Shown in pieces: positions 18,761 through 27,913 of a DNA stretch of 64,000 bases. Made by a program: the position numbers and the translations under genes. This DNA is from Psychroflexus curvus. Its GTDB lineage: Bacteria > Bacteroidota > Bacteroidia > Flavobacteriales > Flavobacteriaceae. Positions within the stretch are counted from its first letter, which is position 1. The number at the start of each line of letters is the position of its first letter. The notes under the pieces were generated by a model that had not been told where the DNA came from, ran no database searches, and saw only the letters and a program-made list of their open reading frames with translations. The stretch lies in assembly GCF_020164585.1 (NCBI RefSeq), contig NZ_JAIQZF010000005.1:248001-312000 (forward strand), in the 5' to 3' direction.

Positions 18761-18775
18761 ATGGCCATTTCTCAT

Positions 18776-19284
18776 TCTGCCTGCCCGCCTCAGGCGTGGA
18801 AGGAGCCTTTTCAGCGACTGATGAATCTTCTCCGGTTCAAGGAATCAGGACACAGGATCCACGACTCACGACGCTTTCATACAAACTATAGAATAAAGAT
18901 TTCCATTTCATTCTACTGACTACCGACTACTCTCTACTTTGTACTTTTTATTGAAAGATCCCTCCTATCGTCGGGATGACAAAGGAAGATCGCTCGCATG
19001 AATGACAAGGCCCACTGTCCCGCCTCAGGCGTGGATGGAGCCTTTTCAGCGACTGATGAATCTTCTCCGGTTCAAGGAATTAGGACACAGGATCCACGAC
19101 TCACGACGCTTAACTACAGACTATAGAATACCGATTTCCATTTCATTCTATCCCTTCTGACTACCGACTACTTTCTATCGTCGGGATGACAAGATCACAC
19201 TGTCATTCAGAAGGAGCCTTTTTAGCGACTGATGAATCTTTTTCTTTCGAAAAGCATTAGACTTCTCCTAGAGTCGGGATCATC
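18776..19284. repeat. Interspersed repeat, two full units plus a partial unit
   Basis: Units of about 180-200 bp start near 18780 and 19013. They share blocks AGCGACTGATGAATCTTC, GGACACAGGATCCACGACTC, GATTTCCATTTCATTCTA and ATCGTCGGGATGACAA. A shortened unit (about 19190-19280) runs into the 3' end of the GIY-YIG gene. No gene is supported. The same repeat recurs at 19656-19890, 23765-23905, 24282-24480, 25500-25815, 26190-26373 and 27796-27850. Confidence 0.85.
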
Positions 19285-19590
19285 TTAAATTTTATCATTC
19301 AAAAATTCCCATTCTGGATTAAAATTATTGATTAGTGCTTCTTTTTTAGATCTTCTGTATCCTTTTATTTGCTTTTCCCTTGCTATAGCTTGATTAATAT
19401 CCTGAAAATGTTCAAAATAAATTAAATAATAGCATTTGTATTTTGTAGTAAAAGCTTTTGATAATGCTGTTGGGTTTTTATGGAAATAAAGTCTTCCCTG
19501 TAAGTCGTTTGTAACACCTGTATAAAGTACCGTTTTGTTTTTATTTGTAAGGATATAAACGTAATAGTTATGAGTCCCAAGTGTTTTCAT
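19285..19590 (-). CDS. Small GIY-YIG nuclease, copy A
   Basis: The 101 residues form a stand-alone GIY-YIG domain. The first motif is YYVYILTN (residues 9-16) and the second is LYTGVTN (22-28), where YTG replaces YIG. The conserved Arg is in LQGRLYFHK and the metal-binding Glu in AIAREKQIKGYRRSKK. These UvrC/UPF0213-like single-domain proteins are common in Bacteroidota. They are presumed endonucleases but their target is unknown. The gene is embedded in an interspersed repeat on both sides. Copy C differs by only 3 bases in 306. Copy B differs at about 45 bases but only 7 residues, which points to selection on the protein. Confidence 0.9.
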   Translation of the reverse strand: MKTLGTHNYYVYILTNKNKTVLYTGVTNDLQGRLYFHKNPTALSKAFTTKYKCYYLIYFEHFQDINQAIAREKQIKGYRRSKKEALINNFNPEWEFLNDKI

Positions 19591-19896
19591 TTTAAAGATT
19601 AATGAAAATTTTATTCAATTTACTAAAAAATTCCACTTATCACCTATCCTACACGAAAAAGAGATCCCTCGTCGCTCCGCACAAGCTGCGCTTTCTCGGG
19701 ATGACAAGATCACACTGTCATTCAGAAGAAGCCTTTTCAGCGACTGATGAATCTTCTCCGGTTCAAGGAATCAGGACACAAGATCCACGACTCACGACGC
19801 TTAACTACAGACTATAGAATACCGATTTCCATTTCATTCTATCCCTTCTGACTACCGACTACTTTCTACTTTCTATCGTCGGGATGACATCGTCCC
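19591..19896. repeat. Interspersed repeat upstream of GIY-YIG copy A
   Basis: About 70 bp of leader, also conserved in copies B and C, is followed by a repeat unit at 19656-19890. An open frame at 19602-19817 would translate the repeat (HSEEAFSATDESS and onwards) and is treated as non-coding. The repeat ends within 10 bp of the ArfB stop codon. Confidence 0.85.
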
Positions 19897-20301
19897 CTAA
19901 AGCTTCGGCTTTTTCCTCAATTGTTTTTTGTCTGAATGTTGTTTTTTCTTTTGAAGGCGTTTCAATTTGGAAGAGCGCGAAGGTTTGGTTTTGATTCTTC
20001 TTTTTGGTTTATGAAGCGCTTTTTTGAGCTTCTCTTCCAGAAGGGATACTGCCAGCTTTTTATTTTGAAGCTGACTTCGGGTTTGAGAAACACTTAATTT
20101 CAGCTCCCCTTCAGCATTGATTTTGGAAGCCAGTTTCTCCTGAATTCGATTTTTTTGAGCTTCAGAAAAAACAATTGACGATGAAGGATGCCAGGTGATA
20201 ATGACTTTGGTCTCTGTTTTATTAACGTGCTGCCCTCCGGGACCACCACTCAGCGCAAATTGAAATTCAAGTTCTTTATAAAGCAGCTTAGTATCAAACA
20301 T
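19897..20301 (-). CDS. arfB: Peptidyl-tRNA hydrolase ArfB (ribosome rescue)
   Basis: ArfB (YaeJ/ICT1 type) hydrolyses peptidyl-tRNA on ribosomes stalled without a stop codon. The 134 residues contain the release-factor GGQ loop in ALSGGPGGQHVNKTETKV (about 18-35) and a lysine/arginine-rich C-terminal tail that in this family enters the empty mRNA channel. The start overlaps the DUF4301 gene by 8 bases, so it is the last gene of the leftward thiamine-associated operon. Its link to thiamine is positional only. Confidence 0.93.
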   Translation of the reverse strand: MFDTKLLYKELEFQFALSGGPGGQHVNKTETKVIITWHPSSSIVFSEAQKNRIQEKLASKINAEGELKLSVSQTRSQLQNKKLAVSLLEEKLKKALHKPKRRIKTKPSRSSKLKRLQKKKQHSDKKQLRKKPKL

Positions 20302-21838
20302 CAGCCTGGGGTTGATGTCCGGGTTTTAGCAAATCCATAACTGCTTTTACAGGGTTGAAACTTTCAACAGGTACTTCTACAAAAACCGTATTCCAAAGAG
20401 CCATTCCTCCATTCCAAAGCCCTGGCAGTTCCAACCCTCTTATGGGTTCGCCTCCTACAAACTTATTAGCAACAAATCCACGTTCGGTATCTACAAAGGC
20501 TTTCAAATTGAAAGCTTCTCCTTTATAATTTTTCATGCTGCATACAATATCCACTGGATTGAAATGAGTGGACGCTTCCATTTTCTCCTTTTGATCTGAG
20601 TCCGATAAGTCAATTTGATTCTTTTCTACAATTTGAAGGGATACACTGCCATCCTCATTTTTAATCCAAAATGGACCACCACCAGGCTCTCCTGTATTCA
20701 CTACCATTCCACAAACCCTTATCGGCCTGTTGAGATAATGAGACACATCCTGTTTATCTTTAATGTTCAGGTGAACATTCAGTTCTTTTCTTAAAAAAGA
20801 AACTGCTTCTTCGAGCAATTCCTGATTATCTGGGTCTTTCTCCAGCTTTTTCAAAAAAGAAAAGGATTTTTCCTGAAGCTGAATAAGCAGTCCTGCAAGA
20901 ATGGATTTGTAGTCCAGAGAGGACTGATTGGTTTCAATAGCAGAATTTTGATGAGAAACATTGTCAATGTTTTTAATAAAAACCAAATCAGCTTCAAGTT
21001 GATTTAGATTTTCTATTAACGCGCCATGTCCTGCTGGTCGAAATACTATTTGACCATCTTTATCTCTAAATAAATTTTCGCTTGCATCTACACAAACTGT
21101 ATCTGTAGAGGGATGTTGGAATGAAAAATCAACTTTATAGTTCACTCCAGTTTTTTCTTCAATTATAGGTTGAAATCTTTTCAACTTCTCTTCAAATTCA
21201 TCGAGATGACCAGAAGATATTGTAAAATGAAGCTGAACTTTCTTATTCTTTACCGCGTAGCTTAAAGCTTCATAAAAATGTTCTTCAAATGCGGTTAATT
21301 TTTCGTTAGGATAGCTGTGAAACGGAATAAGCCCCTTAGGCAAATTCGGCATATCAAACTCCTCTTCAGCTAGCATTACATCGGTCAACTTCAAGGCTTT
21401 TTCACCTTCAGATAACTCCTTTACATCTATGCCTTTTTGGTTTAATGCTGATTTTAAATCTTCATAAAATGCTATATTTTCGATAGACTCAAAAAAAACT
21501 TTAAGCGATTTAAATTGATCTTGGTTTAGGAAGTCTTCAAAGCTTAATTCAGAAGTTAGAAATTCTTTTTGAAATTGATGAAGTAACTTGAACATTCTGG
21601 AGGCAGCTCCACTAGCAGGAACGAATTTTAAAACCTTAAGACCTGAATGCTGATAAACCTCCTTCAATTCAGCCTTTTTATCAGCTTGTAGTTGAATAAT
21701 TCCATCATCTAAAGTCGCTGGCTTAACAATTTCGACTTTAGGGAATCCAGTTTTAAGATGACTTAAATCTTGTTCAATCTTTTTTACTGTAAGTTCATGC
21801 TTTTTTATGTGAGAAAGGTCGGTAGGATCGAAGTTCAT
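20294..21838 (-). CDS. DUF4301 family protein
   Basis: The 514-residue soluble protein matches DUF4301, a family largely limited to Bacteroidota, with the motifs VPASGAASRMFK near residue 77, FRPAGHGALIENLN near 270 and GEPGGGPFWI. The glycine-rich segments resemble nucleotide-binding loops, and some nucleotidyltransferase-like activity has been suggested for such folds. I infer nothing firm. It is the fourth gene in the operon, starting 8 bp after the kinase gene and overlapping arfB by 8 bp. Confidence 0.85.
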   Translation of the reverse strand: MNFDPTDLSHIKKHELTVKKIEQDLSHLKTGFPKVEIVKPATLDDGIIQLQADKKAELKEVYQHSGLKVLKFVPASGAASRMFKLLHQFQKEFLTSELSFEDFLNQDQFKSLKVFFESIENIAFYEDLKSALNQKGIDVKELSEGEKALKLTDVMLAEEEFDMPNLPKGLIPFHSYPNEKLTAFEEHFYEALSYAVKNKKVQLHFTISSGHLDEFEEKLKRFQPIIEEKTGVNYKVDFSFQHPSTDTVCVDASENLFRDKDGQIVFRPAGHGALIENLNQLEADLVFIKNIDNVSHQNSAIETNQSSLDYKSILAGLLIQLQEKSFSFLKKLEKDPDNQELLEEAVSFLRKELNVHLNIKDKQDVSHYLNRPIRVCGMVVNTGEPGGGPFWIKNEDGSVSLQIVEKNQIDLSDSDQKEKMEASTHFNPVDIVCSMKNYKGEAFNLKAFVDTERGFVANKFVGGEPIRGLELPGLWNGGMALWNTVFVEVPVESFNPVKAVMDLLKPGHQPQADV

Positions 21839-21846
21839 AATAAAAG

Positions 21847-22401
21847 TTAAAGAGTTTTAATGGTTGATTTTGCTAGTTGTAAACGCTGACTGAGATCCCC
21901 TTTTAAAATAGTGTAAGGAATATCTCTTTGGATGAGCGTATTTTCAAATATAGCAAACATTTTGTTTCTCTCATTGGGTTTATCTCTCAAATCATCTTCA
22001 ACCCAGGGGGCATCGATATAAGTCAGAAAGTAATGAGCATAGTCATGTTGCTTTACACACTCCTCAAGAACAGGGTCCTCAAAATTTTCGAAATAGGTTT
22101 TGGCGTAGGTTAGTGTTTGAAGCACATTGGTATCGCAAAATAAGAACTCTTTAGCTTTTTTTGCTTTTTCATTCTCTAGCTGAATTTGACCTTTAGCAAT
22201 AGGAATCAGGTCGGATGGCGCACACACCTCAGCAGAATTATTATATTTTTCTTGCAAATAGTCTCTGGCAAACTCAGGTGCCCACTCTGTGTGATACGCA
22301 TTAGCTAAAGCTTCCGCTAAAGTCGATTTCCCAGTAGATTCTGGACCAAAGAGCACTATTTTAGTAAGGTCTCTTTGGGTTTGTTCAAGTTCTTTTTCCA
22401 T
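21847..22401 (-). CDS. NadR-like P-loop kinase, probable thiamine-salvage kinase
   Basis: A Walker A motif FGPESTGKSTLAEALA lies near residues 18-33, followed by EWAPEFARDYL and a Walker B-like FLFCDTNVLQT. This is the pattern of the ribosylnicotinamide kinase domain of NadR. It lacks the NMN adenylyltransferase half (184 residues). In Bacteroidota such kinases accompany PnuC-type transporters and trap the vitamin by phosphorylation. Next to a thiamine-binding protein and a PnuT-like permease, thiamine is the more likely substrate than nicotinamide riboside. It overlaps the permease gene by 46 bp, indicating translational coupling. Confidence 0.85.
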   Translation of the reverse strand: MEKELEQTQRDLTKIVLFGPESTGKSTLAEALANAYHTEWAPEFARDYLQEKYNNSAEVCAPSDLIPIAKGQIQLENEKAKKAKEFLFCDTNVLQTLTYAKTYFENFEDPVLEECVKQHDYAHYFLTYIDAPWVEDDLRDKPNERNKMFAIFENTLIQRDIPYTILKGDLSQRLQLAKSTIKTL

Positions 22402-22994
22402 TCTAAAAATCCATAAACAGCAATAATAGTAAAAAGTATATATTGAAATGAAGTAAACGTAAGTCCTTTATAATAATACAAAGGAATAGAAATCAGGTCA
22501 CCAACAATCCAATAAATCCAGTTTTCAAGCCTTTTTTTAGCCATCAACCACATTCCTACAAAGAAAATGGCCGTGGTCAGTACATCCATATAACTGATCC
22601 ATCCGTCCCACTTATCAAAAACTTCATAGACAATACAAACAAAAATTGCGGTCCCTATGAAAATGAAAATTGACTTCACATTTTCTCTTGCCGTAGCTTT
22701 TTCAATAGGAATAAAATGAGACTCATCGACTTTTCGAGTCCAGATATACCAGCCGTAAATACTCATGATAAAGTAATAGGCATTTATCATCATATCTCCT
22801 AAAAGACTGTATTGATAGAGGATGTAAACAAAAATAAGCGTGCTTACAATCCCCGTGGGAAACACCAAAATATTGTCCTTTTTTGAAAATAAAACACTCA
22901 AAAAACCAAAGACAATGGCAATGACTTCTAAAACGATAAAATGAGTTGGGGTGTTTTCATATTCTGAAAATAACCAATCAAAAATGAGGCTCAT
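22356..22994 (-). CDS. pnuT: PnuC-family vitamin transporter (PnuT-like, thiamine)
   Basis: The 212-residue inner-membrane protein has about seven hydrophobic segments and the PnuC-family signature around MSIYGWYIWTRK and the C-terminal NWIYWIVGDLISIPLYYYKG. PnuC proteins carry nicotinamide riboside. The PnuT branch carries thiamine by facilitated diffusion followed by kinase trapping. The flanking thiamine-binding protein and NadR-like kinase, and the nearby TPP-controlled TonB receptor, favour PnuT. No TPP riboswitch was seen directly upstream of this operon, so its regulation is unclear. Confidence 0.88.
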   Translation of the reverse strand: MSLIFDWLFSEYENTPTHFIVLEVIAIVFGFLSVLFSKKDNILVFPTGIVSTLIFVYILYQYSLLGDMMINAYYFIMSIYGWYIWTRKVDESHFIPIEKATARENVKSIFIFIGTAIFVCIVYEVFDKWDGWISYMDVLTTAIFFVGMWLMAKKRLENWIYWIVGDLISIPLYYYKGLTFTSFQYILFTIIAVYGFLEWKKNLNKPKETLLK

Positions 22995-23238
22995 AATTAC
23001 TTCTATCAGATTTTACTAGTTTCATGTGCAGCAAACCACGGTCCATGGCTTCAAATGCCGTCTGGACTTCTTCCTGCAGAATTTGCATCACCTTGTCATA
23101 TTCGCCATACACCTGAGTGCTCAGCGGATTTTCTAAAACCCTAAGTCCGGAATCACGCAGGGCTTTTATAAAATCGATAATGATAGGTTCATAATCGTCC
23201 TGAATGGGTGTCAGTGTCAGTTCTACTGAAATTTTCAT
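22978..23238 (-). CDS. Thiamine-binding protein, MTH1187/YkoF family
   Basis: The 86-residue soluble protein fits the MTH1187/YkoF ferredoxin-like fold. It starts with MKISVELTLTPIQDDY and contains STQVYGEYDKVMQILQEEV. These proteins bind thiamine or its precursor HMP and usually lie next to uptake genes. It opens the leftward operon and overlaps the permease gene by 17 bp. The upstream DNA is repeat-rich and holds no THI-box. Confidence 0.85.
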   Translation of the reverse strand: MKISVELTLTPIQDDYEPIIIDFIKALRDSGLRVLENPLSTQVYGEYDKVMQILQEEVQTAFEAMDRGLLHMKLVKSDRSNYEPHF

Positions 23239-23908
23239 AGTTTAGCTTTTGAATGGCAAGGTTACTATTTTTTCTTAGAAGAAAAACTTTTCAAAACAAG
23301 TAATAGGCAAAGGTGAGTTGGAATCCATCAAATTAACTAATGGCTTGCTTCTTCAAGAGCCTGCCTGACGGCAAAGGCAGGTTAGACGATCGCGATAGCA
23401 GTAGGCCACCCATTTGAGATGATTGATTAACAGATATACAATACAAAATGATATAGCGTACCTAACGGCACACTGGATAAGTGATGTCTTTGTTTTTACC
23501 CATAAATAGTCCCTAGCGGGACAGGTTCCACATCTTATGCGTTAAGCAGGTGTGTGACATTTCAAAACGGGCTTGGTGTGAATATGTTATTTCAAACTAA
23601 GCACTCAAAAACTCACAGACTACTTCATATCGAATACTGAATATAAAACACCGAATATAATTTTCCGTTTCATATCGACTGCTTAGTACTTTATACTTAT
23701 CAACACTTAAGGCAGTACTCCTTACTTCCACTATTTGAAATCTGACTTCTGATATCTTTCAATAAGAGACCCCTCCTATCGTCGGGATGACAATGGAAGA
23801 TCGCTCGCATGAATGACAAGGCTCACTGTCATTCTGAACGAAATGCAATGGAATGAAGAATCTTTATCTATCGAAAAGCATTAAACTTCTCCTATAGTCG
23901 AGATTACT
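23239..23908. repeat. Repeat-rich intergenic region between thiamine operon and GIY-YIG copy B
   Basis: Three repeat families are visible. One is a palindromic element (about 23358-23400: CCTGCCT-N8-AGGCAGG, then CGCGATAGCAG). The second is an 80-bp block (about 23447-23530) with GGCACACTGGATAAGTGATG and the palindrome GTCCCTAGCGGGAC. The third is a GIY-YIG-associated unit (23765-23905). The first two recur in the same order at 25157-25360. No gene is supported. Confidence 0.8.
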
Positions 23909-24214
23909 TTAAATCTTATCATTCAAAAATTCCCATTCTGGATTAAAACCATCAATCAATGCTTCTTTTTTGGACCTTCTGTATCCCTTGATTTGTTTTT
24001 CTCTCGCTATAGCTTGGCTTACATCTTGAAAATGTTCAAAATAAATCAAGTAGAAGCATTTGTATTTAGTAGTAAAAGCTTTTGACAAGGCTGTTGGGTT
24101 TTTATGAAAATAGAGTCTTTCTTGTAAATTGTTTGTAACACCAGTATATAGCACCGTTTTATTTTTATTGGTTAAGATATAAACGTAGTAATTGTGCGTT
24201 CCTAGTGTTTTCAT
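23909..24214 (-). CDS. Small GIY-YIG nuclease, copy B
   Basis: A 101-residue paralogue of copy A, intact, with YYVYILTN, LYTGVTN, the conserved Arg in LQERLYFHK and the catalytic Glu in AIAREKQIKGY. By eye it differs from copy A at about 45 of 306 bases but only 7 amino acids, so most changes are silent. The gene has evidently been kept functional since the copies separated. It sits in the same repeat setting, with a unit on either side, between the thiamine operon and the MazEF genes. Confidence 0.9.
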   Translation of the reverse strand: MKTLGTHNYYVYILTNKNKTVLYTGVTNNLQERLYFHKNPTALSKAFTTKYKCFYLIYFEHFQDVSQAIAREKQIKGYRRSKKEALIDGFNPEWEFLNDKI

Positions 24215-24502
24215 TTTTTGACTGATGAAAATTTACTCAATTTACTGAAAAATATCTCATACTCCTCTTTTTACTCGAAAGGGAGATCCCTCCTATCGTC
24301 GGGATGACAAGGCTCACTGTCCCGCCCAGACATGGAAGGAGCCTTTTTAGCGACTGATGAATCTTTGCAGGCTCAAGGAATCAGGACACAATCCACGACT
24401 CACGACGCTTAACTACAGACTATAGAATACCGATTTCCATTTCATTCTATTCCCTACTGACTACTTTATACTTTCTATAGTCAAAAAGACTTTACTAAAA
24501 AA
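24215..24502. repeat. Interspersed repeat upstream of GIY-YIG copy B
   Basis: A 65-bp leader related to that of copies A and C, then a full repeat unit at about 24282-24480 that ends just before the mazF stop codon. No gene is supported. Confidence 0.8.
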
Positions 24503-24826
24503 TCAGTCCACAAAGGTTTCTTTGATGATAGCTTTACACTTCTGTATTTCAGTTTTTGACAATTGATCGAATTTTTTAAGTAGTCGTGATTTATCAATTG
24601 TTCGAATCTGGTCAATGGCGATCATTCCTTTTTTACCCTTGTGTTTAACTCCTATCCTGGTAGGATATTTTTTCAAATTAGTTGTCATAGGTGCAACAAC
24701 TATAGTATTTAAAAATTTATTGACTTCATCTGGCGAAACAATAACACAAGGACGGGTCTTTTTGATTTCGCTGCCCTGGGTCGGATCAAGATTTACAAGT
24801 ACAATAGAATATTGTTTCAATTCCAT
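24503..24826 (-). CDS. mazF: MazF/PemK-family toxin
   Basis: The 107-residue toxin has the PemK/MazF beta-barrel pattern: IVLVNLDPTQGSEIKKTRP (family signature at the start of the barrel), VIVSPDEVN, VAPMTTN and GMIAIDQIRTIDKSRL. MazF proteins are sequence-specific mRNA or tRNA interferases neutralised by a cognate antitoxin. The antitoxin gene precedes it with a 10-base overlap, the usual order. The pair is enclosed by GIY-YIG copies B and C. Confidence 0.93.
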   Translation of the reverse strand: MELKQYSIVLVNLDPTQGSEIKKTRPCVIVSPDEVNKFLNTIVVAPMTTNLKKYPTRIGVKHKGKKGMIAIDQIRTIDKSRLLKKFDQLSKTEIQKCKAIIKETFVD

Positions 24827-25062
24827 TCGTCGAGATTTTCGTCTTCAAAGACATCATTAATCAACAATTCATCATCTTTATTCTCGTGCATTTTTTCAAA
24901 TTCCTTTTCCCATCCTTTCCTTGGATTGTCGATGGGTTTCAAAACGATTTGTTCTTTTTCCAGAATCATTTCGACCTTATTCTTGATGTTGTATTTTTCC
25001 AAAATAGTTTTGCTTAAACGCAGACCTTTAGAATTCCCGATTTTGATAATTGATGTTTCCAT
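24817..25062 (-). CDS. mazE: MazE/AbrB-type antitoxin
   Basis: The 81-residue protein begins with an AbrB/SpoVT swapped-hairpin DNA-binding domain (IIKIGNSKGLRLSKTILEKY) and ends in an acidic tail (ENKDDELLINDVFEDENLDEWN) that should wrap and inhibit the toxin. Such antitoxins repress their own operon. A minus-strand -7 box, TAACTTTG (25088-25081), lies about 20 bp upstream of the start. Confidence 0.92.
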   Translation of the reverse strand: METSIIKIGNSKGLRLSKTILEKYNIKNKVEMILEKEQIVLKPIDNPRKGWEKEFEKMHENKDDELLINDVFEDENLDEWN

Positions 25063-25818
25063 AGCTTAATCATGTAATTACAAAGTTAATACATTTATTT
25101 AAAATTAAAAAGTGTTTTTGACTACAATAGTATTCAATGCTTGACGACTAAGTTTCAATTAAATAAACTAAAGGCTGCTTCTTCACGAGCCTGCCTGACG
25201 GCAAAGGCAGGTGAGACGCTCGCGATAGCAGTAGATTTCCAACTTGAAGTGATAGATTAAGATATACAACCCAAAATCATATGGCGTACCTTACGGCACG
25301 CTGGATAAGTGATGTATTTGTTTTACCTTTACCTATAAATAGTCCCTAGCGGGACAAATTTCAAACTAGCAACTCAAAACTCACAAACTACTTCATATCG
25401 AATACAATTTCCCCTTTCATACAGACTACTTTTTACTTATCAACACTAAACGCAGTACTTCCTACTTCTAATATCTGAAATCTAACTTCTGATATCTTTC
25501 AATAAGAGATCCCTCCTATCGTCGGGATGACAAGATCACACTGTCATTCAGAAGAAGCCTTTTTCGCGACTGATGAATCTTTGCAGGCTCAAGGAATCAG
25601 GACACAGGATCCACGACCCACGACGCTTACATACAGACTATGAAACACCGAATATCGCTTTTCATTCTATCCCCTACTGACTACCGACTACTTTCTACTT
25701 TCTACTTTCTATCGTCGGGATGACAAGATCACACTGTCATTCAGAAGGAGCCTTTTTAGCGACTGATGAATCTTTTTCTTTCGAAAAGCATTAGACTTCT
25801 CCTAGAGTCGGGATCATC
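25063..25818. repeat. Repeat-rich intergenic region upstream of mazEF and downstream of copy C
   Basis: After the mazE promoter come the palindromic element (about 25188-25235), the 80-bp block with GCGTACC, GGATAAGTGATG and GTCCCTAGCGGGAC (about 25270-25360), a full GIY-YIG-associated unit (25500-25720) and a partial one (25723-25815). Order and sequence repeat those at 23239-23908, so the B and C neighbourhoods are segmental copies. Confidence 0.8.
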
Positions 25819-26124
25819 TTAAATTTTATCATTCAAAAATTCCCATTCTGGATTAAAATTATTGATTAGTGCTTCTTTTTTAGATCTTCTGTATCCTTTT
25901 ATTTGCTTTTCCCTTGCTATAGCTTGATTAATATCCTGAAAATGTTCAAAATAAATTAAATAATAGCATTTGTATTTTGTAGTAAAAGCTTTTGATAATG
26001 CTGTTGGGTTTTTATGGAAATAAAGTCTTCCCTGTAAGTCGTTTGTAACACCTGTTTAAAGTACCGTTTTATTTTTATTTGAAAGGATATAAACGTAATA
26101 GTTATGAGTCCCAAGTGTTTTCAT
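25819..26124 (-). pseudogene. GIY-YIG nuclease, copy C, nonsense in the active-site motif
   Basis: The frame is nearly identical to copy A (3 differences in 306 bases) over the full 101 codons. Codon 23, the Tyr of the YTG (YIG) motif, is TAA instead of TAT (26058-26056). The product would stop after 22 residues. A second change makes Thr15 into Ser. The near-identity extends about 200 bp beyond the gene on both sides, so this is a very recent duplication of the whole A segment that has since lost its nuclease. Confidence 0.92.
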
Positions 26125-26373
26125 TTTAAAGATTAATGAAAATTTTATTCAATTTACTAAAAAATTCCACTTATCACCTATCCTACACGAAAAAGAGATC
26201 CCTCGTCGCTCCGCACAAGCTGCGCTTTCTCGGGATGACAAGATCACACTGTCATTCAGAAGAAGCCTTTTTCGCGACTGATGAATCTTTGCAGGCTCAA
26301 GGAATCAGGACACAGGATCCACGACCCACGACGCTTTCATACAAACTATAGAATAAAGATTTCCATTTCATTC
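26125..26373. repeat. Interspersed repeat upstream of copy C, interrupted by an IS
   Basis: The leader and repeat unit (about 26190-26373) match those beside copy A. The unit breaks off at TTCCATTTCATTC, where the IS3-type element begins. Its continuation (TCATTCTACTTTCTAC) is found beyond the element at about 27800. Confidence 0.8.
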
Positions 26374-26427
26374 TGTCATTCCCTGATATAGGTTGACCGT
26401 TTTGATTAATATACTAATTTACTTTTT

Positions 26428-26538
26428 TCATAATTTTATTGGACAATTAATAGCTTGAGGTTCTTCTTTTGGATCAAAATCTTGTTTGCTTAGTTCTAAT
26501 TTGATTTCATAATTTTCCTCAGCATAGATAATAACCAT
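26428..26538 (-). CDS. Tiny ORF inside the IS3-type element
   Basis: A 36-codon frame beginning MVIIYAEENYEIKLELSKQ lies between orfB and the left end of the element. It has no recognised domain and no visible promoter. It could be a passenger remnant or chance. Confidence 0.2.
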   Translation of the reverse strand: MVIIYAEENYEIKLELSKQDFDPKEEPQAINCPIKL

Positions 26539-26547
26539 TGGTCTTTT

Positions 26548-27370
26548 TTAGTTCTTTAAATCTAACAAATAATTTCTAAAGGCTTTTGGTGTTCTTCCAT
26601 CTAAGCCACTGTGTTGCCTTTTTGTATTGTAATGCCTTATAGCTTTTTGGCTTTTAAAGTCTTTAAATCCTTGATATGCCAAAGTTTTAAATACTCATTT
26701 TTTATCGTTCCATTAATGCGTTCTGCATAGGCATTGTCTTGAGCAATTTATCCCATACTCACTTCTATACCAGCATTTCCAAGCAAATCTTTATATGCCT
26801 CGCTACCATACTGTGAACCGCGGTCAGAATGATGGATCATTGTTTCTGGTTCTGAAGACTTTATCTGTTTCAATGCCATTCTTAAAGCTTTTATGTTACT
26901 CTGTTTACGCATATTTTTACTTACATTATAGCCTATTATTTCTCTGGTATAAACATCTATTATAAAAACTAGATAATAAAATTTACCATCGATATCAAAG
27001 TATGTAATATCACTTTGTAAGACCTGATAAGGCTCTGTGACTATCATTCCTTCAATTAAGTTAGGATAATTCAAATGAGTAGGTGTAGTCGTTCTTATAT
27101 AATTTTTAATCCTTCTAACACGATAACCTAAATCAATGAATATCTCACAAAACTTATCCCTTCCCATACACTCTGGTTTGAGCGTACGATACAACTTCTC
27201 AACCCCACAACCTGGATGTTCTTCTCTAACTAATGTCGACCTGACTTACTAAATCCATGAGTTCTAAATCAAATTTGATTTGTCTATTACGCGCTTGATA
27301 AACAGCTTGTTTGCTGATGTTTAAACATCGATAAAACGCATTAAGACTATAATCTAATTCTTCTTTGTGG
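26548..27370 (-). pseudogene. IS3-family transposase OrfB (DDE integrase), decayed
   Basis: The pieces recognised in order are an N-terminal helix (LDYSLNAFYRCLNISKQAVY), EEHPGCGVEKLYRTLKPE, and the catalytic core with Asp in LQSDITYFD and Asp in HHSDRGSQYGS. The third catalytic residue is Glu in NAYAERINGT, and the tail is HSGLDGRTPKAFRN. Three lesions separate them: a frameshift near 27229-27245, a stop (TAA, 26750-26748) just before the catalytic Glu, and a second frameshift near 26640-26670. The start is approximate because OrfB is normally made by frameshifting from OrfA. The middle piece (27194-26748) is still open for 148 codons. Confidence 0.88.
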
Positions 27371-27752
27371 TCTTGGAACCACCAGATTGTGGGGTGTTTG
27401 AGTTTTTTTTAATGTCGATATCATAGTCTTGCTTAGCCAGTTCTATCATCTTTTCTAGATAGTCTATATTCATTTGCTTTTGCCCTAAAGCTCGTTCTAG
27501 ATCTGCTATACGAGATTGCATTTCTTTAACTTTATTCATATGACTATCTTTAAATTCAACAACTTTTACCGACTTCTTATTGTACTTTGAATACTTGTAA
27601 ATCCAATTGTAAATCGTTTGGTTAGTAATGTCGTAAATCTTTTCCAGTTCATAAACTGAATGTTTTCCTGATTCATAAAACTTGACAATTTTTAATTTAA
27701 AATCCTCAGAATAAATCTTTCGAGGTCCTAAACGTTTTCCGCTCTTTATCAT
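27354..27752 (-). CDS. IS3-family OrfA (HTH transposase subunit)
   Basis: The 132-residue protein has a helix-turn-helix of the transposase type (YSEDFKLKIVKFYESGKHSV, then ITNQTIYNWIYKYSKY) followed by a leucine-zipper-like coil (MQSRIADLERALGQKQMNID). It is intact and would bind the inverted repeats. With OrfB broken the element cannot move by itself, but OrfA could still bind related elements. Confidence 0.88.
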   Translation of the reverse strand: MIKSGKRLGPRKIYSEDFKLKIVKFYESGKHSVYELEKIYDITNQTIYNWIYKYSKYNKKSVKVVEFKDSHMNKVKEMQSRIADLERALGQKQMNIDYLEKMIELAKQDYDIDIKKNSNTPQSGGSKTTKKN

Positions 27753-27795
27753 CTGTAAATGGTTTTAAACGGTCAACGCTATTTAGGGAAGGTCA

Positions 27796-27850
27796 AAGGT
27801 CATTCTACTTTCTACTTTCTACTTTGCACTTTCTATCGTCGGAATGACAA
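27796..27850. repeat. Right half of the repeat unit split by the IS
   Basis: TCATTCTACTTTCTAC then TATCGTCGGAATGACAA continues the unit that ends at 26373, marking the IS as a later insertion. Confidence 0.7.
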
Positions 27851-27852
27851 AC

Positions 27853-27893
27853 AAAAAAAGCCTGAAATTCTAGATTTAGAATTTCAGGCTTTT
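27853..27893 (-). terminator. Intrinsic terminator of the acyl-CoA dehydrogenase gene
   Basis: The stem AGCCTGAAATTCT / AGAATTTCAGGCT with an 8-base loop is followed on the minus strand by T7, 20 bp after the stop codon. Confidence 0.9.
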
Positions 27894-27913
27894 GCTATAA
27901 TTCAAATTCAAAA

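Follow-up and report, generated by a model that had tools for sequence, protein, structure and literature searches.

Repetitive extragenic palindromes (REPs) are common in bacteria, and those with a GTAG tag have a dedicated enzyme, the REP-associated tyrosine transposase (RAYT), whose lineage is tracked by the type of repeat according to PMC6006769. The CGTC REP superfamily, which occurs in Bacteroidetes and Proteobacteria, has been left without an enzyme: its units carry a CGTC, TGTC or CCTC tag, a stem mostly starting with AT and a short unpaired tail, and are found in inverted pairs (PMC3733652, Di Nocera et al. 2013). In that paper, no dedicated transposase and no tyrosine transposase gene flanked by CGTC repeats was found, the enzyme being proposed to have perhaps been lost early or its role to be served by a broad range of transposases, and the term GIY is absent from it. 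Among the PMC titles and abstract openings listed in our literature search, none linked GIY-YIG genes to REPs. Here we describe a 9-kb stretch of Psychroflexus curvus, lying in a window of 64,000 nucleotides (the whole stretch of DNA analysed; NZ_JAIQZF010000005.1, positions 248,001 to 312,000), in which a small GIY-YIG nuclease gene repeatedly sits between repeat units. On balance, we favor the reading that gene and repeats form a mobile element of the REP type, with a small stand-alone UPF0213/Slx1-like GIY-YIG nuclease as its dedicated enzyme, and that this element would spread via cutting of REP hairpins and repair.

The original prediction, made from the sequence of the window, had proposed three copies of a 101-residue gene, each placed between repeat units behind a leader of about 70 base pairs (bp), as well as a recent duplication, selection on the protein and repeat units lacking the gene. 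The arrangement of units and leader holds for all three copies, which lie on the minus strand (Table 1), while the number of working genes has to be revised: A and B are intact, and the TAA in copy C leaves two intact copies and one pseudogene. Copies A and B are distinguished by 45 of 306 bases and by 7 of 101 residues, close to the earlier estimate, and the computed synonymous and nonsynonymous rates (dS 1.30, near saturation; dN 0.038; ratio 0.03; rows for the genomes labeled G306, G316, G322 and G323 were left out) indicate that the protein is under purifying selection, as had been supposed. Between A and C only 3 of 306 bases differ, the TAA among them, and the near-identity extends over a block of 570 bp (19168-19737 and 25702-26271) with its three mismatches all inside the gene, in agreement with a recent copy. 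Since the breakpoints of this block fall in the adjoining repeat units and the sequence beyond it differs, copy C is apparently a gene unit placed into a pre-existing repeat array. The closest named locus belongs to Psychroflexus sediminis (L076, 97%), and the gene of that species at syntenic site A is nearer to copy B (dS 0.26) than to copy A (dS 0.99), which suggests that the site-A gene was replaced or independently gained. The genome spans 3.0 Mb in 35 contigs, and 14 further GIY-YIG matches in it (E<=0.001) reach at most 46% identity. Units without the gene do exist: six in the window by the delimitation used here, with additional repeat pieces, again without this gene, on contigs C1, C35, C30, C23 and C33. 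The stems of the window units measure about 5 bp beside the tag (ATCCC/GGGAT, ATTCA/TGAAT) and their loops are long. No Rfam family was found for the repeats; the single match at E<=0.1 between 18700 and 28000, to a human long non-coding RNA family and below the gathering score, lies outside them.

The association of gene and repeat is real and extends far beyond the window. We examined 80 loci of named relatives (the best 80 of 200 from a single scan of named genomes; by title mostly Flavobacteriales, plus a few Chitinophagaceae and a single Chlorobiota-titled bin; gene ends were estimated in records without annotation). Up to 150 bp from the gene, the motif TGTCATTC/GGGATGACA and its complements reaches 9.0-9.5 occurrences per kb, as against 0.13-0.15 per kb at a distance of 2.5-5 kb in the same loci, with four permuted motif sets at 0-0.13 per kb in every distance bin. 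The simple motif TGTCATYC lies within 400 bp of the gene in 79 of the 80 (random windows of the same loci, 213 of 2,612) and on both sides in 67 (24 of 2,612), forming an inverted bracket in 42 of these and other arrangements in 25, at median distances of 58 and 37 bp from the gene ends. The distal windows and permuted motifs exclude chance or base composition as the cause of this link. Further close loci, some of them from genomes already among the 80, had the motif within 400 bp in 16 of 16 and 6 of 6 cases, and 7 of 22 more distant Psychroflexus GIY-YIG loci were also positive. Minimal elements in Chryseobacterium, Winogradskyella and Seonamhaeicola consist of nothing more than the gene and two repeat ends, with terminal inverted repeats (TGTCATTCTGA...GAATCT, gene, AGATTC...TCAGAATGACA).

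A single motif for all lineages failed, as TGTCATYC was present on either side in 26 of 90 and on both sides in 17 of 90 loci whose genes are 45-59% identical (the mid class; 90 of 93 loci were used, three under 3,200 bases being omitted). A motif-free test, however, found repeats across the gene in 72 of these 90 loci, compared with 1 inverted and 15 direct repeats in 180 control windows, and the repeats it recovered led to a shared design of tagged hairpins, in which the tag (T/C)GTC is followed by a stem and a tail C, with stems ATTGC/GCAAT, ATTTC/GAAAT, ATGCT/AGCAT, ACTGC/GCAGT and others. At tagged sites, the stem partner of the site's own type followed by C was found in 176 of 436 cases for close relatives, 275 of 409 for the mid class and 32 of 66 for a plasmid collection plus one phage locus, whereas partners of other types occurred at 6.9%, 1.5% and 0.8%, respectively; the two stem arms thus vary together, as expected for a recognized hairpin. 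Under a strict test (tag, 5-bp stem and C tail within 330 bp), 64 of 80 close relatives were positive (distal windows 24 of 292), as were 75 of 90 mid genes (42 of 180) and 16 of 19 plasmid-collection loci (5 of 38). The same test was positive at 1 of 15 loci of a tRNA-linked GIY-YIG clade (15 of 19 being long enough), at 0 of 6 RAYT loci (two short loci dropped) and at 0 of 40 arfB/MTH1187 loci, a count in which the gene-less unit at site A of G300 scored negative, meaning that the test overlooks some real units. For the nine most frequent stem types (134 rows), 40 changes were required on a tree of 193 GIY-YIG proteins built with FastTree, compared with a mean of 82 and a minimum of 72 in 200 shuffles, and with the close clade removed 20 changes (74 rows) compared with a shuffled mean of 49.5 and minimum of 44. 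Gene lineage and stem type therefore track each other. In the reading we favor, the ends of the element and its gene-less derivatives are tagged palindromes of the CGTC-REP design, (T/C)GTC plus stem plus tail C.

The design recurs in other phyla. Searched with tblastn, the plasmid collection gave 35 records, of which 18 were examined at 19 loci and 17, which look like near-copies by organism and identity, were set aside. With a 6-bp stem, a tagged hairpin was present within 300 bp in 15 of the 19, including alpha-, beta- and gammaproteobacterial loci from Rhizobium, Shinella, Neorhizobium, Sinorhizobium, Azospirillum, Sphingobium, Novosphingobium, Neisseria, Aeromonas and Photobacterium; by eye, TGTCATYC-type repeats were seen at Planktothrix (Cyanobacteriota) and Spirosoma loci. 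No tagged hairpin was found at the Methylobacterium (L367) and Radiobacillus (L377) loci, and the Radiobacillus gene sits in an apparently conserved operon. The unit of Azospirillum lipoferum reads CGTC-ATCCCCGC-GAAG-GCGGGGAT-CCA, and the proteobacterial units fit an 8-9 bp stem and a 4-5 nucleotide loop, a fit judged by eye beyond A. lipoferum and with varying lengths. A phage origin of the gene was considered and rejected, as 10 of 50,697 phage records match, all of them Rhizobium phages at 34-35% identity. On a Planktothrix agardhii plasmid (L353), the GIY-YIG gene and TGTCATTC repeats have an MmeI-type restriction enzyme gene on one side and drmA, a DISARM gene, on the other.

Compared with the CGTC REPs, the repeats share a tag (CGTC, TGTC or CCTC) at one unit end and occur as dispersed multi-copy units, often in inverted pairs. 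The window units differ in their stems of about 5 bp and longer loops, as opposed to the 8-9 bp stem and 4-5 nucleotide loop, and because of these shorter stems we file them as divergent relatives rather than strict members, whereas the proteobacterial units fit the definition. The resemblance to RAYTs and REPs noted in the original prediction is confirmed in anatomy, namely in the bracketing units, the dispersed gene-less units, the occurrence in several phyla, the lineage tracking and the site states. As in REPtrons (RAYT/TnpA-REP, GTAG REPs, REPINs), a small gene lies between tagged palindromes, which also occur in dispersed form without the gene; the enzyme here is GIY-YIG (PF01541) instead of HUH/Y1 and the tag is (T/C)GTC instead of GTAG, so that the system works like a REPtron and is not one by enzyme or tag. 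With free-standing GIY-YIG homing endonucleases it shares invariant catalytic positions, presence or absence site by site and a gene inside a short repeated target, but its 101 residues show no domain besides GIY-YIG, it would be aimed at a dispersed palindrome instead of a single conserved gene, and cleavage of that target is something we infer. With insertion sequences (IS) it shares the terminal inverted repeats of the minimal elements.

Presence and absence were compared between species at three Psychroflexus sites and at sites in Azospirillum and Shinella, and gene-occupied and unoccupied alleles of one and the same site do exist. Site A carries the gene in the P. curvus window genome and in G310 and a single gene-less unit in G300. 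In G312, G174 and G304 it measures 40, 53 and 62 bp and lacks the motif, and in G306 it spans 170 bp without an intact motif. Site B likewise carries the gene in the window genome and G310; it measures 94 bp in G306 and G323 and 248, 316 and 512 bp in G174, G304 and G300, in each case without gene or intact motif. Downstream of pepD, the gene is present in the array of G306 and in G322 (1.7 kb downstream), gene-less motifs are found in the window genome (3), G310 (7, with a run of N at the site), G323 (3), G174 (2) and G300 (1), no motif was found within about 1.5 kb in G304, G299 and G316, and the sequence of G301 ends at the site. In four Psychroflexus genomes besides that of P. curvus, gene and repeats also occur away from sites A and B. 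In Azospirillum lipoferum 4B the order is sufB-REPs-gene-REPs-sufC, and in three relatives the sufB/sufC site spans 87-129 bp without gene or REP between flanks about 95% identical; at the Shinella site, the gene is present in WSC3-e and HZN7 and absent from H4-D48 and PSBB067.

Across 299 family genomes, the number of repeats (pattern TGTCATYCNGAN{5,30}GRATCT) rises with the presence of the gene. A close gene (best E<=1e-40, n=17) went with a median of 21 hits, a mid gene (E<=1e-20, n=84) with 2 and the lack of both (n=198) with 0, and at least 10 hits were reached in 16/17, 13/84 and 16/198 genomes, respectively (close versus neither, Mann-Whitney p=6e-13, with gene-adjacent hits counted and no kinship correction). 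The gene itself is patchy, being found at E<=1e-20 in 101 of the 299. The position of the gene inside such hairpin repeats, here and in many unrelated bacteria, suggests that gene and repeat spread together.

Regarding the enzyme, a GIY-YIG domain (PF01541) is the only one detected in the 101 residues, and Y12, Y23, R33, H37, E72 and N91 are invariant in 20 sequences, positions that correspond to those of I-TevI. The predicted structure (predicted local distance difference test score 92) is nearest to the UPF0213 protein BH0048 (1zg2, E 3e-4), followed by Slx1 (E 0.013 and weaker), and 1zg2 is also the best sequence match (E 0.0011). The UPF0213 proteins and Slx1 are regarded as host proteins, which sets them apart from this nuclease; the Bacillota relative in Radiobacillus differs as well, in its operon-like setting and its lack of tagged hairpins. 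Slx1 is a nuclease of branched DNA, so cutting at the foot of a hairpin or at a cruciform by the present enzyme would be plausible. In the scheme we propose, the nuclease would recognize a REP or an inverted REP pair folded into a hairpin or cruciform and nick this structure at its tagged foot, and the break would be repaired from a REP-flanked copy. Repair could copy the gene-bearing unit, giving homing into a REP array such as copy C looks to represent, or it could copy a gene-less unit and so spread the repeat, as RAYTs are thought to spread REPINs.

Several observations weigh against this proposal. Association, selection and presence or absence at sites are shown, cleavage and movement are steps that we infer, and no target-site duplication was seen by eye, at insertion points blurred by divergence; stretches resembling decayed units are visible by eye at the 'empty' site B of G174, G304 and G300. 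In L145, one of the 80 named relatives, neither side of the gene shows the motif within 400 bp, 5 of the 80 frames end before codon 50, and the simple motif is also near 2 of the 14 other GIY-YIG loci of the P. curvus genome. With a 6-bp stem, 10 of the 80 close loci and 27 of the 90 mid ones are positive, which leaves the motif and the 5-bp test to carry the case for the close clade; in the plasmid collection the 6-bp test is also positive at 9 of 40 control windows, and the mid distal windows of the strict test lie only 860 bp off, partly in arrays, and are repeat-rich themselves (42/180). Shared inheritance of loci could partly contribute to the correlation on the tree. Furthermore, 29 genomes with at least 10 hits lack the close gene, and of the 18 of them searched at E<=1e-5, 6 had no gene match at all, including G094 with 128 hits, while G297 has the gene and 2 hits only. 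G094 and G297 belong to the same genus in opposite states, perhaps reflecting gene loss after repeat expansion.

Such repeat-rich genomes without the gene would also be expected if REPs were merely a safe landing site, the gene being an ordinary free-standing homing gene that targets REP palindromes and the REPs being spread by another enzyme. The pepD site, with gene-less units in five genomes and the gene in two, and copy C as a gene unit within an existing repeat array fit that explanation as well, yet gene-bearing genomes contain more repeats (gene-adjacent hits counted), the minimal elements hold only the gene and two repeat ends, and RAYT loci of the same genus lack the repeat (0/6 by hairpin, 0/8 by the simple motif), so that we regard it as unlikely. 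A RAYT or IS transposase of the same genomes moving both gene and repeat is much less credible still: 24 of 27 Psychroflexus genomes contain matches to Y1 transposases and an IS3-family element lies within the array, but the RAYT loci are without the tagged hairpin, the IS3 element interrupts a unit and has its own ends, and PMC3733652 reports no tyrosine transposase gene flanked by CGTC repeats.

The Slx1-like fold of the predicted structure and the position of the repeats right at the gene ends could instead point to a host enzyme acting on cruciforms of REPs or on RNA that contains them, the adjoining repeats then being regulatory or terminator hairpins; we consider this improbable, because patchy presence, pseudogenes, multiple copies and syntenic presence and absence fit a mobile element better. 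There remains a merely local segmental duplication in a repeat-rich intergenic stretch, and within the P. curvus genome the picture is indeed that one, which the original prediction had named as speaking against itself: the three copies are confined to 9 kb of a single contig, the 570-bp block of A and C is a recent copy, and repeats elsewhere are unlinked to the gene. Comparison between species removes this difficulty, as gene and repeats occur together at other loci in four other Psychroflexus genomes and a repeat adjoins the gene in 79 of 80 named relatives; the relatives, the pepD site and the strict hairpin test refute local duplication as a full account, and we give it hardly any weight.

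Table 1. Gene copies, repeat units and syntenic sites in the window, with positions counted from its first nucleotide.
Feature	Position	Strand	Remarks
GIY-YIG nuclease gene copy A	19285..19590	minus	intact, 101 residues; PF01541 E 1e-15
GIY-YIG nuclease gene copy B	23909..24214	minus	intact, 101 residues; PF01541 E 4e-17
GIY-YIG gene copy C	25819..26124	minus	pseudogene, TAA at codon 23
Gene-bearing unit A	19201..19706	minus	end TGTCATCCCGA...GGGATCT at 19706, leader, gene, inverted end at 19201
Gene-bearing unit B	23827..24309	minus	repeat ends at 24309 and 23827
Gene-bearing unit C	25735..26240	minus	ends at 26240 and 25735; inside the 570-bp block shared with unit A
Gene-less unit	18781..18981	minus	one end variant
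Gene-less unit	19016..19191	minus	one end variant
Gene-less unit	19716..19889	minus	adjoins arfB-like gene
Gene-less unit	24318..24480	minus	ends decayed
Gene-less unit	25542..25725	minus	
Gene-less unit	26250..26373	minus	split by IS3-family insertion; other end probably 27803-27850
Site A	18761..19896		between FAD-dependent oxidoreductase and arfB-like genes
Site B/C	23239..27913		between MTH1187-like and acyl-CoA dehydrogenase genes

Other features share this stretch with the units of Table 1. The IS3-family element (26374-27795), which sits in a gene-less repeat unit, has imperfect inverted ends and two reading frames, of which that for the integrase is short and apparently broken. A MazF/PemK-like toxin gene and a weakly matching antidote-like gene (TIGR02609) lie between copies B and C (24503-25062). 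A second duplicated segment, without a gene and about 77-91% identical piecewise, lies beside the GIY-YIG units (23324-23793 and 25155-25533). In addition, the genome contains a second GIY-YIG subfamily, represented by eight tandem genes (frames of at most 83 residues) at a spacing of about 364 bp in L040:6940-9800 on contig C34, where the units that were read carry an apparent 3' half of a tRNA gene. In 14 of 18 loci of relatives, ARAGORN placed a tRNA (Met, Arg, Val, Ala, Asn or Leu) no farther than about 400 bp from the gene, and L246 on contig C30 has tRNA-Asp; these genes are possibly homing elements of tRNA 3' ends.

Whether the small GIY-YIG nucleases are the missing dedicated enzymes of the whole CGTC-REP superfamily, including the dRS3-type repeats of Neisseria and covering at least Bacteroidota, Pseudomonadota and Cyanobacteriota, is in our view evenly balanced. 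With a single gene of about 100 residues as the candidate and a matching hairpin beside it in each lineage, the question of the CGTC-REP enzyme becomes testable, and the candidate offers a possible function for the common annotation 'GIY-YIG nuclease family protein'. If the nucleases do serve the whole superfamily, this would be a second, non-HUH class of REP mobilization, based on cutting of the tagged hairpin by a structure-selective nuclease and on repair that copies either the gene-bearing or the gene-less unit.

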